A stretch of DNA of 64,000 bases from Archangiaceae bacterium. GTDB taxonomy: Bacteria; Myxococcota; Myxococcia; Myxococcales; Myxococcaceae. The notes beneath the pieces are model-generated. The model ran no database searches. It saw only the letters and a list, made by a program, of their open reading frames with translations, and was not told where the DNA came from. The position numbers and the translations under genes were made by a program. Location of the stretch: the NCBI GenBank assembly GCA_016879935.1, contig JAACJQ010000195.1, positions 1-64,000 on the forward strand, read 5' to 3'. Below are positions 44,264-58,977 of this stretch, in pieces. Numbering within the stretch: the first letter of the stretch is position 1; every line of letters begins with the position of its first letter.

Positions 44264-45826
44264 ATGAACCGATTGCTCGTCGTCGCCGTCGTCTTTCTCT
44301 CGCAGCTCACCTTCGCGGCTGATCAGTGGACCACGCCCTTCCAGGGCATTCGCCGCCTCGAGCGCACCACCTCGAACCAGCGCATTCACGCCGTCGTCGT
44401 CGACCTGAGCGCTCCGGGCGTGAAGCTGCAGTCGACCGCCTCGTCACAGCGCGGCCGCACGCCGACGTCGTTCGCGAAGCTCATCGGCGCGCAGGTGGCC
44501 ATCAACGCCGACTTCTTCAAGGCGGGCTACGTGACGAGCGGCCTCGCGGTGGGCAACGGCGTGAAGTGGCCCGACACCAACGACTCGCGCACGTACGGAA
44601 CGTTCGCGTTCGACACGACTCCGCTCGCGCCGCGCGTCGAGCTGCAACCGCCCGAACACGTGATGCAGCCCGCGTCGTGGATGAAGGGCGTCGTCTCGGG
44701 CCGCCCGCGCGTGCTCGCGAATGGCACCGTGCTCACGTCGACGGCCTCGGTCTGCGCGAACAACGTGCGGCACCCGCGCACGGCCATCGGGCTCTCCGCC
44801 GACAAGAAGAAGCTGTTCATGGTGGTCGTCGATGGGCGCTCGTCGGTGGCGGCCGGCATGACGTGCTCCGAGGTCGGCGCGCTGCTCAAGTCGCTCGGCG
44901 CGGCCGAAGGCATGAACCTCGACGGTGGCGGCTCGAGCGCGATGTACGTTCAGGGCTTCGGCACGGTGAACCGCCCCTCTGACGGCCAGGAGCGCGTCGT
45001 CGGCAATCACCTCGCCGTCTTCGCGAAGCCCACCGTGCGCACCGGCACGGTGAAAGGCGCGGTGTACGTGAGCGGCAACCTCACCAACCGCATCGCAGGC
45101 GCGGTCGTGCGCGTGTCGAACGGCATGAAGGCGACGACGCTGGCGAACGGGCTCTACGACTTCACGCTGCCCGTCGGCACGTACACCATCACCGCGTCGG
45201 CGCCCGGCTACACGTCGGCGTCGGTGAAGCGCACCATCACCGCGAGCACCACCATCTGGGGGAGCATTCCCCTCGTGCGCTCCGCGACGGCCGACTTCGA
45301 CAAAGACGGCGTGCTCGACTCGCGTGACAACTGCGTGCGCGTGAAGAACGCCAACCAGGCGAACAACGACCGCGATGCCGCGGGTGACGCGTGCGACGGC
45401 GATGACGACAACGATGGCCGGGCCGATGAAGACGACAACTGCCCGATGAAGGCGAACGCGAACCAGGCTGACTCCGACCGCGATGGCCTCGGAGACGTGT
45501 GCGACTCGACGCCCGGCACGCCGCGCCCGGTGGACCTGATCATCGACGAGCCGCTCGACACGGAAGGCCTCTGGCAGCCCGCGCCGCTCGACGACCTGAC
45601 GTTCCTCGAGTCGCTCGAGGTGCCGCTGCTCGTGGTCGATGACGAAGAAGGAGACCTCGAAGGCGTGCTGGTCGACGGTGACGAGGCCGAGCTTCCAGAG
45701 GACGTGCTCGATGCCGACGCCGAGGTGCTGAACGCGGAACAGGTGGGTTGCAGCTCGGCTCCGCTGCAGGGGCTGTGGCCGCTCGCGATGCTGGCGCTCG
45801 CCCTGCGCCGCCGTCGTCTTCACTGA
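44264..45826 (+). CDS. Secreted phosphodiester glycosidase (NAGPA-type) with TSP3 repeats and MYXO-CTERM tail
   Basis: ATG at 44264; 520 residues. Signal peptide (VVFLSQLTFA), then a NAGPA domain at about 40-275 with INADFFKAGY, RTAIGLS, VVVDGRS and the signature NLDGGGSSAMY. A carboxypeptidase-regulatory-like beta sandwich (280-340) follows, then thrombospondin type 3 calcium repeats (DFDKDGVLDSRDNC; DSDRDGLGDVCD), an acidic stalk and a MYXO-CTERM tail (GCSSAPLQG, hydrophobic helix, RRRR). The enzyme family cleaves N-acetylglucosamine phosphodiesters and is found on exopolysaccharide-related enzymes. It is probably displayed on the surface. Confidence 0.9.
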   Translation: MNRLLVVAVVFLSQLTFAADQWTTPFQGIRRLERTTSNQRIHAVVVDLSAPGVKLQSTASSQRGRTPTSFAKLIGAQVAINADFFKAGYVTSGLAVGNGVKWPDTNDSRTYGTFAFDTTPLAPRVELQPPEHVMQPASWMKGVVSGRPRVLANGTVLTSTASVCANNVRHPRTAIGLSADKKKLFMVVVDGRSSVAAGMTCSEVGALLKSLGAAEGMNLDGGGSSAMYVQGFGTVNRPSDGQERVVGNHLAVFAKPTVRTGTVKGAVYVSGNLTNRIAGAVVRVSNGMKATTLANGLYDFTLPVGTYTITASAPGYTSASVKRTITASTTIWGSIPLVRSATADFDKDGVLDSRDNCVRVKNANQANNDRDAAGDACDGDDDNDGRADEDDNCPMKANANQADSDRDGLGDVCDSTPGTPRPVDLIIDEPLDTEGLWQPAPLDDLTFLESLEVPLLVVDDEEGDLEGVLVDGDEAELPEDVLDADAEVLNAEQVGCSSAPLQGLWPLAMLALALRRRRLH

Positions 45827-52710: not shown

Positions 52711-53844
52711 TCAGTCGAGCACGACGAGATCGTCGCGATGCACGGCCTCGTCCATGCCGCGCCAGCCGAGCACTCCTTCAATCTGCCCGCTCTTGAGCCC
52801 CGCGATGCGGGAGAGGTCTTCCGCCGAATACGCCACGAGCCCGCGGGCGAACGCCTTGCCGTCTGGCCCCGCGATGTCGACCGGGTCTCCGTGCGCGAAC
52901 TGACCCTTCACTTCTGTGAGACCCGACGGCAGCAGGCTCTTCTTCTTGTCGATCAGCGCGACGCGCGCGCCGTCGTCGACGACCAGCGTGCCCTTCGGTT
53001 TGAGCGCATGCGCGATCCACGCGGCGCGGGCGTCACGATGTGAGGCGAGCGGCTCGAACACGGTGCCGAGATCGGCGCCTTCGAACAGGCCCGTCAACGC
53101 GCCGCTCCGATGCCCTTCTGCGATGACACAGCGAAGGCCCAGCTCGGTCACCCGCGCGGCTGCTTTCAGCTTCGTCGCCATGCCGCCGGTGCCCACGCTG
53201 CTGCCGCTGCCACCAGCCGCCTTCAACATCGCGGGCGTCACCTGCTCGACGAGGGGAATGCGCTTCGCGCTCGGGTTCGTGCGCGGGTCGGCGTCGTAGA
53301 GCCCGTCGACGTCGCTCAAGATGATCAACACGTCGGCCTGCACCAGCCCCGCGACGAGCCCGGCGAGCGTGTCGTTGTCGCCGAACTTGATCTCGTCGAC
53401 CGAGACGGTGTCGTTCTCGTTGATCACCGGCACCACGCCGTGGCTGATCAACCGCTCGAGCGCGTGGCGGGCGTTCAAGTAGCGCCGCCGGTCCTGCACG
53501 TCGGAGTGCGTGAGCAACACCTGCGCGACGACCTTCGGCGCGAGCGCCTCTTCCCACGCGCGCATCAACCGGCTCTGCCCCACGGCCGCGCAGGCCTGTT
53601 TTCCAGGAATGTCCTTCGGGCGCGCCTCGAGCCCCAGGCGTTCGACGCCGAGCGCGATGGCGCCCGACGACACCACGATGAGCTCGCGACCCTCGGCGAG
53701 CGCGAGCAGCTCCTTCGCGAGCTTCTCGAAGTGCCCTCGATGGAACTTGCCGGTCGCGTGCGTCAGCGCGTTGGTGCCGATCTTCACGACGACGCGGCGC
53801 GCCTGTGCCAACGCCTCTCGCCCTGTCTTCCGTCTCACGGTCAC
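52711..53844 (-). CDS. proB: Glutamate 5-kinase
   Basis: GTG at 53844 (GTG at 53838 also possible); 377 residues, the size of the AAK-plus-PUA form. Kinase motifs: VVVKIGTNAL, VSSGAIALG, VINENDTVSVDEIKFGDNDTLA, LSDVDGLYDADP and GTGGMATKLKAA. The C-terminal PUA domain starts near DPVDIAGPDG. It catalyses the first step of proline synthesis. proA is not adjacent. The gene ends at the base after the convergent prepilin peptidase gene. Confidence 0.97.
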   Translation of the reverse strand: MTVRRKTGREALAQARRVVVKIGTNALTHATGKFHRGHFEKLAKELLALAEGRELIVVSSGAIALGVERLGLEARPKDIPGKQACAAVGQSRLMRAWEEALAPKVVAQVLLTHSDVQDRRRYLNARHALERLISHGVVPVINENDTVSVDEIKFGDNDTLAGLVAGLVQADVLIILSDVDGLYDADPRTNPSAKRIPLVEQVTPAMLKAAGGSGSSVGTGGMATKLKAAARVTELGLRCVIAEGHRSGALTGLFEGADLGTVFEPLASHRDARAAWIAHALKPKGTLVVDDGARVALIDKKKSLLPSGLTEVKGQFAHGDPVDIAGPDGKAFARGLVAYSAEDLSRIAGLKSGQIEGVLGWRGMDEAVHRDDLVVLD

Positions 53845-54042: not shown

Positions 54043-54402
54043 ATGCGCCCTCACCTGGACGTCGCAGAGACGATGCACGAAGCCGGAGGCAGCCTGCTCG
54101 AGCGGGCCCTCGACCCCGAGCGTTGGGCGCTGCCGACCCGCCGCGTGAACAAAGAGAACCTCTGTCAGGTGGGCAGCGTGCAGGTGTGCGCCTCGCTCGA
54201 CATCACACCCACGCTCGACACCTTCATTCGCATCTCGTTCCGCGGACCGAGCCTGTCGCCCATGCAGGCCGCCGAGCTGCTCGAGCAGTTCGTCTCGAAG
54301 CGCTTCACCTACGTTCCGAACGCCGAGTGGTTCGTCGAGATCGACGCCCGCAAGTGGATTCACTTCTCGCGGAAGTACACGGAGCAGCGACTCGAGGCTT
54401 GA
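54043..54402 (+). CDS. Small unrecognised protein, first gene of a coupled operon
   Basis: ATG at 54043 is chosen because GGAGG lies eight bases upstream; the frame is open further 5' but overlaps no other start with such a site. 119 residues, soluble, no signal peptide: starts MRPHLDVAETMHEAGG and contains CQVGSVQVCASLDITP. No family recognised. It lies 17 bases upstream of the secreted-protein pair and is likely the first gene of the unit up to 56387. Confidence 0.6.
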   Translation: MRPHLDVAETMHEAGGSLLERALDPERWALPTRRVNKENLCQVGSVQVCASLDITPTLDTFIRISFRGPSLSPMQAAELLEQFVSKRFTYVPNAEWFVEIDARKWIHFSRKYTEQRLEA

Positions 54403-54419
54403 GGCAGACTGCTGGCCTC

Positions 54420-54704
54420 ATGAAACGACTCCTCCTCGTCGCCACGCTCGCGCTGTCGTCGGTTGCGCTCGCCGACCTCGTGTCGGACACCGAGTCGGCC
54501 TGCCGCGACAAGAAGGCCGGTGACGCCTGCCGCGCGAGCCTCTCGGCCGGCGTGTGCACGGCCTCGAAGTGCAGCCGCAACGACTACAGCGAGGGCATTC
54601 CGCCGAAGCAGAAGGTCGTCGACTGCCTGAAGTGCCTCGAAGCGACCACCGACGGTGGCGTCGCGACGAAGAAGCCGAAGAAGACGTACGGGAGCGCGCC
54701 ATGA
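54420..54704 (+). CDS. Small secreted six-Cys protein with DYSEGIPPK motif
   Basis: ATG at 54420; 94 residues with signal peptide (LALSSVALA). The mature protein has six cysteines (ACRDKKAGDAC, GVCTASKCSR, VDCLKC) and the motif DYSEGIPPK. It is a paralogue of the next gene product, which shares the spacing and the DYSEGVPPK motif but has only four of these cysteines. The C-terminus is Lys-rich (KKPKKTYG) and has no membrane helix. Its stop overlaps the next start (ATGA). Confidence 0.8.
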   Translation: MKRLLLVATLALSSVALADLVSDTESACRDKKAGDACRASLSAGVCTASKCSRNDYSEGIPPKQKVVDCLKCLEATTDGGVATKKPKKTYGSAP

Positions 54705-55051
54705 GAACCCTGACCCTCGCCGTCCTGCTCGTGGCAGGCGTCGCCCTCGCCGACATTCCCCCTTCGAACTCGACGCAGTGCCACAGCGCGCAGACGGGCG
54801 CGGCGTGCACCACCGACGACGGCAAGCCGGGCACCTGCCTCAAGCAGCTGGTCAGCCGACTGGACTACAGCGAGGGCGTCCCTCCGAAGACGAAGCAGGT
54901 CGAGATGCTGCTCTGCGTGGCCAGCGTGACGGCGCGGTCGACCGCCACCAGCTCGCCTCCATTCTTCGCCGCCGGCGCGTTGATGCTGGTGATGCTGGGC
55001 CTCATCGTCACGAAGCTCGTGAGCCGCGGCCGCCGGAGCGCCGCTGCGTGA
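54701..55051 (+). CDS. Membrane-tethered four-Cys paralogue with DYSEGVPPK motif
   Basis: ATG at 54701 overlaps the previous stop. 116 residues: signal peptide (LLVAGVALA), domain with four cysteines and DYSEGVPPK, then a C-terminal hydrophobic helix (FFAAGALMLVMLGLIV) followed by a basic end (SRGRR). This tail resembles a CTERM-like anchor. Compared with its neighbour, the Cys before SRxDYSEG is Val and the Cys eight to nine residues after PPK is Met. Its stop overlaps the next start as GTGA. Confidence 0.8.
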   Translation: MRTLTLAVLLVAGVALADIPPSNSTQCHSAQTGAACTTDDGKPGTCLKQLVSRLDYSEGVPPKTKQVEMLLCVASVTARSTATSSPPFFAAGALMLVMLGLIVTKLVSRGRRSAAA

Positions 55052-56043
55052 GCGTGGCGGGCGCGATCCTCGCTCCGGTGGACTCGGTCCGCTCGGCGAT
55101 TCTGAAGGTCGCCTCGCCGTGGGTCAGCCCTCTCTTCGCCGATCGCCGCCGCCGGGTGTGGTGGCTCGGCGTCGTCTCGGTCGTCAGCGCCTTCGTCGTC
55201 ACGGGCCTGGTGCCGCTGTGGAGCCTCGCGCTGGGCCCCGTGCTCCTCGGGGTGCCTCACCTCGTCTCCGACGTGCGGTACCTCGTCGTTCGCCCGAAGC
55301 TGCATCACAAGCCGTGGCTGCTCGTGCTGGTCGGTGCGCCGCTGCTCGCGACCTCCCTCGGCGCGGGGCCTGAAGTCGGCGTGCTGGCCATCGTCCCTGC
55401 GGTGTTCGGCGCGGGCTTCTCGTGGCGGCTCGTCGTCGTCGCCTTCGTGTGGCTCGCGTTGACGGCCGCTGCGTACCTCGAGCCCTTCGGCTTTCAGCTC
55501 GCCTTCGTGCACGCCCACAACCTCCTCGCCGTGCTGCTCTGGTGGAGCCTGACGGCTCGCGCGAAATCGATGGCGTGGGTTCCCCTGCTCACCGTCGGCG
55601 GCGCCGTCGCGATTCTCGCCGGTGCGCTCGACCCGCTCGTCACCTGGAGCGGTGGCTGGAGCGCGCCGTGGACGGGCACGAGCTTCACGGAGTTCGTCGA
55701 GAACATCACCCCTGCCCTCGACCCGACGCTCGCCGGGCGGCTCGTGCTCTCGTTCTGCTTTCTGCAATCGGTGCACTACGCGGTGTGGCTCAGGCTCGTG
55801 CCCGACGACGCGAGACCACGCCCGGCGCCACGCACCTTCGCCGCGAGCTGGGACGCGTTGGTGGCCGACTTCGGGCTCGCGCCGCTGCTCGTCTTCGTCG
55901 CGCTCTCGTTGGGGCTGGCGGTGTGGGGCGCCGTCACGCTCCCGGGCGCGCGGCTCGGCTACCTGCAGCTCGCGGCGTTTCATGGCTACCTCGAGCTCGC
56001 CATCGCCGCCCGGTGGTTCGCGTTCGGGCGCGCCTCGACATGA
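55048..56043 (+). CDS. Polytopic membrane protein, possibly Brp/Blh-like
   Basis: GTG at 55048 overlaps the upstream stop. 331 residues with about nine hydrophobic segments. Histidines sit in motifs typical of diiron/iron membrane oxygenases: GVPHLVSDVRYLV, FVHAHNLLAVLLWW, FLQSVHYAVWLRLVP and AFHGYLELA. GxPHxxxDxxYL and the HYxxW motif recall the Brp/Blh beta-carotene 15,15'-dioxygenase family, but the match is partial and no carotenoid gene is nearby. It is coupled to the two DYSEG proteins and to the small membrane protein downstream. Confidence 0.7.
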   Translation: MSVAGAILAPVDSVRSAILKVASPWVSPLFADRRRRVWWLGVVSVVSAFVVTGLVPLWSLALGPVLLGVPHLVSDVRYLVVRPKLHHKPWLLVLVGAPLLATSLGAGPEVGVLAIVPAVFGAGFSWRLVVVAFVWLALTAAAYLEPFGFQLAFVHAHNLLAVLLWWSLTARAKSMAWVPLLTVGGAVAILAGALDPLVTWSGGWSAPWTGTSFTEFVENITPALDPTLAGRLVLSFCFLQSVHYAVWLRLVPDDARPRPAPRTFAASWDALVADFGLAPLLVFVALSLGLAVWGAVTLPGARLGYLQLAAFHGYLELAIAARWFAFGRAST

Positions 56044-56387
56044 GCGCGTTTCTCGAGAGCGCGTTGGGCGCCTGGCTCGTCGGCTTTCTCTTCACGCAGG
56101 CCATCGAGGTGCCGCTGTACCTGCGCATCACGCACGGCAGGTGGGCCACCTCGGTGCTCGCGTCGACGCTCACGCACCCCATCGTGTGGTTCGTCTTCCC
56201 GGCGCTGTGCCCGCTGTCGTGGGGCTACTGGGGCATGGTCGCCGCAGCCGAGGTGTTCGCGGTGGTGGGCGAGACGGTGTGGCTGCGGGTGAACGGTGTG
56301 GCGTGCGCGCTCAAGTGGGCGTTCGTCGTCAACGCCGCGAGCGCGGTCGGAGGCCTGCTCTTGCGCGCGACGTTCGACGTGCCCTGA
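56040..56387 (+). CDS. Small membrane protein coupled to the Brp-like gene
   Basis: ATG at 56040 overlaps the previous stop (ATGA). 115 residues with about three membrane helices; FTQAIEVPLYLRITHGRW, THPIVWFVFP and a Glu in AAAEVFAVVGETVWL are the most distinctive stretches. No family is recognised with certainty. Last gene of the coupled operon; it ends one base before the convergent cyclase gene. Confidence 0.75.
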   Translation: MSAFLESALGAWLVGFLFTQAIEVPLYLRITHGRWATSVLASTLTHPIVWFVFPALCPLSWGYWGMVAAAEVFAVVGETVWLRVNGVACALKWAFVVNAASAVGGLLLRATFDVP

Positions 56388-57989
56388 TCAGATGCCGTTG
56401 AGCCGGTAGTACCGCAGCGGCTGCGCGACGTTCTTCACCGGCGTCTCGTCGAGCGAACCGATGGTGTACTTCGCGAGCGCCGGGTCCTTCAGGGGCGACG
56501 CGGCTTCCCACGCTTCTTTCATCACCAGCGTCTCGCGGAACGCACCGAGCGACTGCAGGCGCGCCGTCTGGTTCATGCCCGTCGAGAAGCTCGTGTAGTT
56601 GCGGTTCGGGCCGAAGAGGCCGCAGAAGCTGACCGCGAGGTTCACGCCGATGGCGACGCCGAGGCCCGGCATCTTGAGAATCTCCGACAGCCGGCTGATC
56701 TCGGGGTGCGCGCTCATCGTGTCACGCGTGAAGGCCTGAATCTCGGCCGCAGCCTTGATGGCCGCCACCGCGCGATTGCCCGGCGAGTCCTTGAAGAAGG
56801 GGGGGCCGAAGAGGCCGATGACGCAGTCTCCGACCATCTTGTCGAACACGCCGCCGTGCCGATGAAGAATGCGCACCGACTCGGCCGACCAGTCGTCGAC
56901 GAACTTGCCGATGCGCTCGGGCCGCTCGAGCACCTGCTCACAGATGCGCGTGAAGCCGTTGATGTCGGCGAAGAGAATGCCCACCTCTTCGGCGCGCGGA
57001 GCGAGGTAGCGCCGCTCGTAGTCGGGGTCTTTCAACAGCTCGTCGATGGCCTGCGACGAGAAGAACTGCGAGAGGTGAATGCGCTCGCGGTTGTAGTCGA
57101 TGAGGCGCTGCGAGAGCGTCGACGCGAGCAGCCGCAGCAGGTCGATGGTGTACGCCGAGAAGCCGTCGCCGCCGCTCCAGACCATGATCTTGCCGAGGGC
57201 GTGCGAGTCGCCGACGCCGCTGATCAACACCGTCTCGACCGCTTTGCGCTCGCCCAGCACCTGCGCGAGGTGTTTGTCGCTGGGCGTGATCAGGTTCGGG
57301 CCATACGCACGAATCGCGTCTTCGAGCGTGGTGAAGCGGCGGCCGTTCGACGCGTGCTCGAGCTGGCCGTACTTGTACATGCGGTAGTGCAGGGCGCCCG
57401 ACTCCACCGCGTCGCGGTAGAGCAGCAGAAAGCCCGGCAGCTTCACCTTCTCGCACAGCGCCCGCACCGCGCCGTCCATGCCGACTTCGAAGACGCGGTT
57501 GGCCAGGTACGTGTTGATGGTGACGAGCAGCTGGTGCTTCTCGGCGGCGGTCTGAATCGAGGCCAGCACGGTGTCGAGCTCTTCGGCGATGGTCTCGAGC
57601 GCGCGCGCGAGCTTCGCCGCGTCACTGGTGCGGTCGCCCTCGTAGAGAATACCGATGGAGCCGACCGGCGTGCCCACCACGTCGAGCTGCTGGGAGACGA
57701 AGGTGTGGCCGCTCTCGAGCTTGCGCACGCCCCAGCGGCTGCCCGTGAGCAGGGTGCCGGGGAACACGCCGTCGAACTCGCCGTGTGAGAACGTGGTCGA
57801 GACGAGCTCTTCGTCGAGCGTCGTCACGCACATGCCTCGCGCGCCGATGAGGTGCATGACGGGCGGGAAGAGCCGGTTGAACGCCTTCTCGACGCTCTCG
57901 CGATGCTTGAGCGACTCCTCGAGCAGGTCGTCGACGGTTCGGTTCAGCTCCCGCAGGTGCTTCAGCTCTTCCAGCGTCAGGTCGTCCAT
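56388..57989 (-). CDS. Class III adenylate/guanylate cyclase with N-terminal GAF-like region
   Basis: ATG at 57989, alternative ATG at 58022; 533 residues, no membrane segment. The N-terminal 320 residues comprise a coiled start and one or two GAF-like domains (LLVTINTYLANRVFEVGMDG). The cyclase catalytic domain (about 345-515) has both metal-binding Asp (ILFADINGFT and GDCVIGLFGPP) and the FSTGMNQTARLQSLG transition-state region. The product, cAMP or cGMP, cannot be assigned surely. Likely a cytosolic sensor making a cyclic nucleotide. Confidence 0.9.
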   Translation of the reverse strand: MDDLTLEELKHLRELNRTVDDLLEESLKHRESVEKAFNRLFPPVMHLIGARGMCVTTLDEELVSTTFSHGEFDGVFPGTLLTGSRWGVRKLESGHTFVSQQLDVVGTPVGSIGILYEGDRTSDAAKLARALETIAEELDTVLASIQTAAEKHQLLVTINTYLANRVFEVGMDGAVRALCEKVKLPGFLLLYRDAVESGALHYRMYKYGQLEHASNGRRFTTLEDAIRAYGPNLITPSDKHLAQVLGERKAVETVLISGVGDSHALGKIMVWSGGDGFSAYTIDLLRLLASTLSQRLIDYNRERIHLSQFFSSQAIDELLKDPDYERRYLAPRAEEVGILFADINGFTRICEQVLERPERIGKFVDDWSAESVRILHRHGGVFDKMVGDCVIGLFGPPFFKDSPGNRAVAAIKAAAEIQAFTRDTMSAHPEISRLSEILKMPGLGVAIGVNLAVSFCGLFGPNRNYTSFSTGMNQTARLQSLGAFRETLVMKEAWEAASPLKDPALAKYTIGSLDETPVKNVAQPLRYYRLNGI

Positions 57990-58068
57990 CGGCACACACG
58001 GGAGGGTACCACGCGTGGGCATTTGGCCGAGAACTTCGCCGCGCCCGGAATGGAGGTAGACTGATCAC

Positions 58069-58410: not shown

Positions 58411-58977
58411 ATGTTGACCATCGCTGAAGTCCAGCCCTTCGAGGTCCACCGCCTCGATCGAGCCGCGTACCATCAGCTCTCCGACGCGGGCGCGTTCACC
58501 GGCAAGAAGGTGCAACTCATCGACGGAGTCATCGTCACCATGAACTCGATGGGGCCGCCTCACGCGTTCGTCGTCGGGAAGTTGAATCAGCTCCTGAGTC
58601 TCCAGCTGGGAGACTCCCGCATCATTCGAGTCGGCTTGCCGCTGGCGCTGTCGGAGCGCTCGGAGCCTGAGCCCGACCTCGCCGTGGTGTCCGAGAAAGA
58701 CACGGACCCGGGCGCTGACCATCCCTCCAGCTCGCCGTTGATCATCGAGGTCTCCGACTCCAGTCGCACCTTCGATCTCGGCCTCAAGGCTGACCTCTAC
58801 GCCGCAGCTCGCCTGCCCGAGTACTGGGTGGTCGACCTCAAGAACGCGAAGATCGTCGTGCACCTCGAACCGAAGAAGGGCCGGTACCAGCGCGTTCACC
58901 GCTTCGGGCGCGGCAAAGCAGTCACCTCCACCATCGCGCCGCGGGTGACCATCAAGGTGAACGACCTCTTCGTCTGA
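58411..58977 (+). CDS. Uma2-family (DUF820) nuclease-like protein
   Basis: ATG at 58411; 188 residues. Restriction-endonuclease-like fold of the Uma2 family: LIDGVIVTM, PHAFVVGKLN, EPDLAVV, PLIIEVSDSS, DLGLKADLYA and LPEYWVVDL contain the PD-(D/E)XK-type residues (Asp in PDLAVV, Glu and Lys in IIEV...KADLY). Function of the family is not established; many genomes carry dozens of copies. No partner gene is evident. Confidence 0.92.
   Translation: MLTIAEVQPFEVHRLDRAAYHQLSDAGAFTGKKVQLIDGVIVTMNSMGPPHAFVVGKLNQLLSLQLGDSRIIRVGLPLALSERSEPEPDLAVVSEKDTDPGADHPSSSPLIIEVSDSSRTFDLGLKADLYAAARLPEYWVVDLKNAKIVVHLEPKKGRYQRVHRFGRGKAVTSTIAPRVTIKVNDLFV

Follow-up and report, generated by a model that had tools for sequence, protein, structure and literature searches.

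A conserved gene unit of cysteine-rich exported proteins and two membrane proteins in the Myxococcota

An Archangiaceae bacterium carries a short run of overlapping genes for two cysteine-rich exported proteins and two membrane proteins, which raises the question of whether these genes make up a system of the cell envelope and, if so, what that system might do. The run lies within a 64,000-nucleotide stretch of DNA from contig JAACJQ010000195.1 (here called the window). An earlier note, made from the sequence letters only, read it as an undescribed redox or lipid/pigment-modifying complex at the envelope.

The locus and its exported proteins

Four genes on the plus strand form the core of the locus. 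B (54420-54704) encodes a secreted six-cysteine protein of 94 residues with a signal peptide, and C (54701-55051) encodes a membrane-tethered four-cysteine paralogue of 116 residues, also with a signal peptide. They are followed by D (55048-56043), which encodes a polytopic protein of 331 residues with about 10 transmembrane (TM) segments, and by its partner gene E (56040-56387), which encodes a protein of 115 residues with about four TM segments. The description in the earlier note, with no C-terminal anchor in B, a C-terminal TM segment in C, a polytopic D and a small membrane protein E, was confirmed. Upstream on the same strand is A (54028, or an internal ATG at 54043, to 54402), which encodes a small cytosolic protein of 124 residues and is a regular neighbour in Myxococcaceae. 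By sequence inspection, the unit is flanked on one side by proB (52711-53844, minus strand) and on the other by a cyclase-like gene (56388-58022, minus strand). Beyond the latter, positions 58411-58977 resemble, also by inspection, an Uma2-type (DUF820) nuclease-fold protein.

Successive core genes overlap by 4 bp, as ATGA between B and C (54701), GTGA between C and D (55048) and ATGA between D and E (56040), just as first described. The overlaps are kept in relatives: the gap between D and E is zero or negative at 18 of 20 loci and that between the last B/C gene and D at 10 of 14, and the D-E overlap is also present at the more distant loci L032, L036, L040 and L055. Comparison with homologues in two congeners gave dN 0.19-0.20 and dS 0.62 for D, dN 0.11-0.12 and dS 0.55-0.61 for E, dN 0.26 and dS 0.69-0.82 for B, and dN 0.26-0.34 and dS 0.56-0.92 for C. 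B, C, D and E are therefore real genes, since dN is well below dS, the mark of purifying selection, and the overlaps are conserved. A promoter scan of the locus found no sigma-70 consensus, and a terminator scan found terminator-like matches at no more than chance level.

B and C are 39% identical (E-value 3e-12 in a genome-wide tblastn search). The cysteines of B, at positions 28, 37, 46, 51, 69 and 72, follow the pattern CxnGxxCxnGxCxxxxC...DYSxGxPP...CxxC in the family alignments, and the protein ends in a lysine-rich tail with no C-terminal TM segment. The AF2 model of B is a small three-strand beta domain (core pLDDT about 90-93, pTM 0.54). Neither a fold search with B nor a profile sequence search with the B/C family gave a significant match in the PDB.

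Many relatives of B carry a tail like that of MYXO-CTERM proteins, in which a cysteine is followed by a TM segment and an arginine-rich end. At Myxococcaceae loci, B-type copies usually have this tail, and C-type copies have the TM segment and arginine-rich end with no cysteine. The window's own proteins lack the complete layout: B is without the TM tail, and C, which has a C-terminal TM segment and an arginine-rich end, has no cysteine where the TM segment starts. The version in the window's genus is derived, with the B tail lost and no tail cysteine in C. The earlier suggestion of one domain in a soluble and an anchored form thus holds for this genus and fails elsewhere, where the B form has an anchoring tail of its own. 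Elsewhere in the window, at 44264-45826, a secreted protein of 520 residues carries a canonical MYXO-CTERM-like tail (GCSSAPLQGLWPLAMLALALRRRRLH). A second C-like branch, marked by the motif RRPDFxxxxPPxW, occurs at four Myxococcaceae loci (L120, L121, L122 and L123), next to another uncharacterised protein of about 300 residues with C-terminal TM segments.

Distribution in the Myxococcota

D was found in 19 of 195 genomes of the phylum, and MAGs of Sandaracinaceae, Labilithrix and Polyangiaceae add further cases. In Myxococcaceae, the gene order is A, one to three B/C genes, D and E; in more distant Myxococcota, D-E, or D with a B-like protein, recurs. Presence of E and of B/C was recorded for 189 of these 195. 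E is present in all 17 D-positive genomes covered by the E search and in nine others. Counted by genus, E occurs in 13 of 14 D-positive versus 5 of 75 D-negative genera (Fisher p 8e-11) and B/C in 9 of 14 versus 2 of 75 (p 1.5e-7), both values being inflated because phylogeny is ignored. The genes are linked in relatives and not scattered, and the co-conservation expected of a system is borne out by the recurrence of the B/C-D-E order in Myxococcaceae.

Tailed exported proteins also recur beside single members of the unit. Where D is absent, a tailed B-like gene lies directly beside E in G135 (L127) and G092 (L192), and three such genes stand in tandem upstream of E in G167 (L188). Tailed proteins are encoded immediately upstream of D at L037, L055 and L039, the last of which is not of the B/C family, and immediately upstream of a diverged form of D, described below as D2, in G178 (L195), with a marginal match to the B/C profile. 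Of 373 predicted neighbourhood genes, a strict tail filter kept three, and two of these immediately precede D; the binomial value for this enrichment was computed after the pattern had been seen and is illustrative only. At L032 and L036 and in G010 and G024, D-E is present but no B/C gene could be detected beside it.

Gene A, which the earlier note counted as a member of the system, has to be removed from it. A belongs to an uncatalogued cytosolic family that is found in nearly all Myxococcaceae and whose WIHFSRxYT end is strongly conserved. Of 189 genomes, 85 have A, and most of these have no D, which makes A an adjoining gene rather than a component; G054 has the B/C-D-E cassette and A on different contigs. 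In G010, A adjoins E, and D is on another contig.

None of A to E matches Pfam or NCBIfam above cut-off, and the families built from D (25 members), E (20) and B/C (32) gave only stray sub-threshold matches. In PHROGs, A, B, C and D are without a match and E has one weak sub-threshold match to phrog_24773, of unknown function (E-value 0.035). PADLOC gave no match for B to E, and no relative was found in the viral contigs searched. Apart from that one sub-threshold match, all three sources were negative, and a phage or defence origin of the unit was rejected. D falls in no known family and the parts are uncatalogued in Pfam and NCBIfam, so that the earlier reading of a coupled, co-conserved envelope operon outside the catalogues is supported. 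Three families with no catalogue entry travel together in a phylum known for its surface-based social behaviour.

The membrane proteins D and E

The AF2 model of D has 10 helices and high confidence (pLDDT 92.4, pTM 0.90). Fold searches against the PDB and against viral models, and a profile sequence search against the PDB, gave no significant match. A diverged branch of the family, D2, was reached through weak matches to E: in G143 and G185, the genes beside these matches specify a 10-TM protein that shares the motifs of D (GLPH/GLAH..E.RY, LHN, QxxHY and HAWxE). A D2 search found the branch in G143, G176, G178, G185 and G186, and it adjoins E in G143, G178 and G185. The two branches are homologous, as their profiles align over 287 columns with an hhalign probability of 97% and an E-value of 4.6e-11.

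Residues P56, G68, H71, R77, H157, Q240, H243, Y244, P252, Y305, H312 and E316 are invariant in both branches, and N158 is nearly so. According to the AF2 helices and hydropathy, the four invariant histidines lie one each on TM2, TM6, TM8 and TM10. Positive-inside flanks indicate that these four helices all run from periplasm to cytoplasm, and the histidines sit at a similar depth, each about 10-14 residues short of where its helix ends on the cytoplasmic side. To judge from these residues, the histidines would meet in one site and, with the invariant Glu, Gln, Tyr and Arg, look like an intramembrane active site that is probably metal-dependent. Even with no reaction assigned to it, D is notable as a confidently modelled protein of 10 helices whose conserved residues form a compact set and for which solved structures offer no match. 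The invariant positions of E are W12, T19, E23, T45-H46-P47, W50, E71, E78, N98, S101 and G105.

Proposed function and competing readings

The functional unit would consist of B/C, D and E. The tentatively preferred reading, which falls somewhat short of even confidence, is that D and E form an inner-membrane complex, probably metal-dependent, whose role is to mature, anchor or work with the cysteine-rich surface proteins encoded beside it. D, with its 10 or so TM segments, would pair with the four-TM E; B and C are disulfide-rich exported proteins, and D-E would mature, anchor or otherwise handle them as substrates or partners. In the window's genus, B, with its tail lost, is probably released, and C stays tethered.

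Such a system would be a dedicated one beside the general myxosortase route, in which the CPBP protease MrtX cleaves proteins with the cysteine, TM and arginine tail and the lipid-attaching enzyme is unknown (PMC11980579). What the two share is a signal peptide and this kind of tail, both present in relatives of B, and the association of such proteins with a polytopic membrane protein. They differ in that D lacks the CPBP motifs EExxxR and HxxxN, that D has a patchy distribution and MYXO-CTERM runs through the whole phylum, and that the canonical tail is missing from the window's B and C. The exosortase/PEP-CTERM and rhombosortase/GlyGly-CTERM systems likewise encode a polytopic inner-membrane protein together with exported proteins that end in a TM segment and an arginine tail; D, unlike their enzymes, has neither an invariant cysteine nor rhomboid-type catalytic residues, and processing in the D system is putative. 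D was accordingly rejected as a myxosortase or other CPBP protease, both motifs being absent from its invariant columns and no Pfam match having been found, and as an exosortase or archaeosortase, whose invariant catalytic cysteine it lacks. Lacking both an invariant cysteine and EExxxR, D does not share any known sortase chemistry.

If D-E does act on tailed surface proteins, it would supply a dedicated route alongside the myxosortase pathway, which has only recently been described (PMC11980579). A bolder form of the idea, unlikely as it stands, is that D and E found a new family of intramembrane enzymes, with a fold new to the PDB, that modifies co-encoded cysteine-rich surface proteins of Myxococcota, for example by attaching lipid to MYXO-CTERM-like tails. 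The main counterpoint to any role for D-E in handling B/C is that D-E stands in some lineages with no B/C gene detected next to it, so that B/C may be accessory. In addition, the window's B has no tail and its C no MYXO-CTERM cysteine, and MYXO-CTERM proteins are so common in the phylum that some adjacency is expected.

Among the alternatives, the one that survives best, although it too is improbable, makes D-E a membrane enzyme that modifies lipids, quinones or carotenoids in the manner of Brp/Blh, with B/C as its partners in the periplasm or at the surface, carrying or sensing the product. It is consistent with the presence of D-E without B/C in several lineages and with the design of D, which shares with Brp/Blh (PF15461, BCD) about 10 TM segments, one histidine on each of several helices (TM2, TM8 and TM10 in common) and the motif GxPHxxxD, as GVPHxxxD. 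Homology, however, is undetectable beyond that motif. None of the 25 members of the D family matches Pfam BCD at E<=1, the window's own genome has no BCD match, and hhalign gave probabilities of 0.9% and 4.5% over 15 columns with a BCD profile of only five sequences; widening the set through viral contigs and plasmids yielded few sequences. Set against the BCD layout (GxPHGAxD, HF, the TM8 histidine and PH), D has GxPH and lacks GA, and hydropathy places its second histidine motif on TM6 rather than TM4. The Brp/Blh-like motifs reported in the earlier note are thus real as one motif and a style of intramembrane histidines; membership in the family is not supported, and the label is to be dropped. 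As a profile search found no Brp/Blh structure in the PDB, the lack of a PDB fold match for D leaves a resemblance standing. An ordinary retinal cassette, a microbial rhodopsin-like gene directly followed by a Brp/Blh gene, is found at L059 in G110, of the same order.

A role in lipid or pigment chemistry also stays open because a solo B-like gene adjoins a gene for an RPE65-type carotenoid oxygenase (Pfam E-value 7e-84) in the congener G006. This neighbour was found only once, and the inspected D loci showed no linked rhodopsin or carotenoid gene. The pair, at L118:4385-6277, consists of a DYS-type MYXO-CTERM gene and, 3 bp upstream on the same strand, the RPE65-family gene; it is not linked to D-E.

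It is less probable still that D-E is a non-catalytic transporter or scaffold in a trans-envelope complex with B/C. Translational coupling and the co-conservation of all parts would suit a stoichiometric complex, but conservation in D is concentrated in intramembrane His, Gln, Tyr and Glu residues, as is typical of an active or ligand-binding site. Four intramembrane histidines at similar depth could instead ligate haem, and D-E might then be a haem- or metal-bearing redox complex that handles disulfides or electrons for the cysteine-rich B/C. This is doubtful, more so than the scaffold: the D and E families have no CxxC or invariant cysteine, and D has no PDB fold match to haem A synthase, b-type cytochromes, DsbB or VKOR. 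That the genes are mere neighbours with no joint function is very improbable; MYXO-CTERM proteins are common and A is just such a neighbour, yet this reading is disfavoured by the correlated presence of B/C, D and E and by an adjacency that recurs in divergent lineages and changed genomic contexts.
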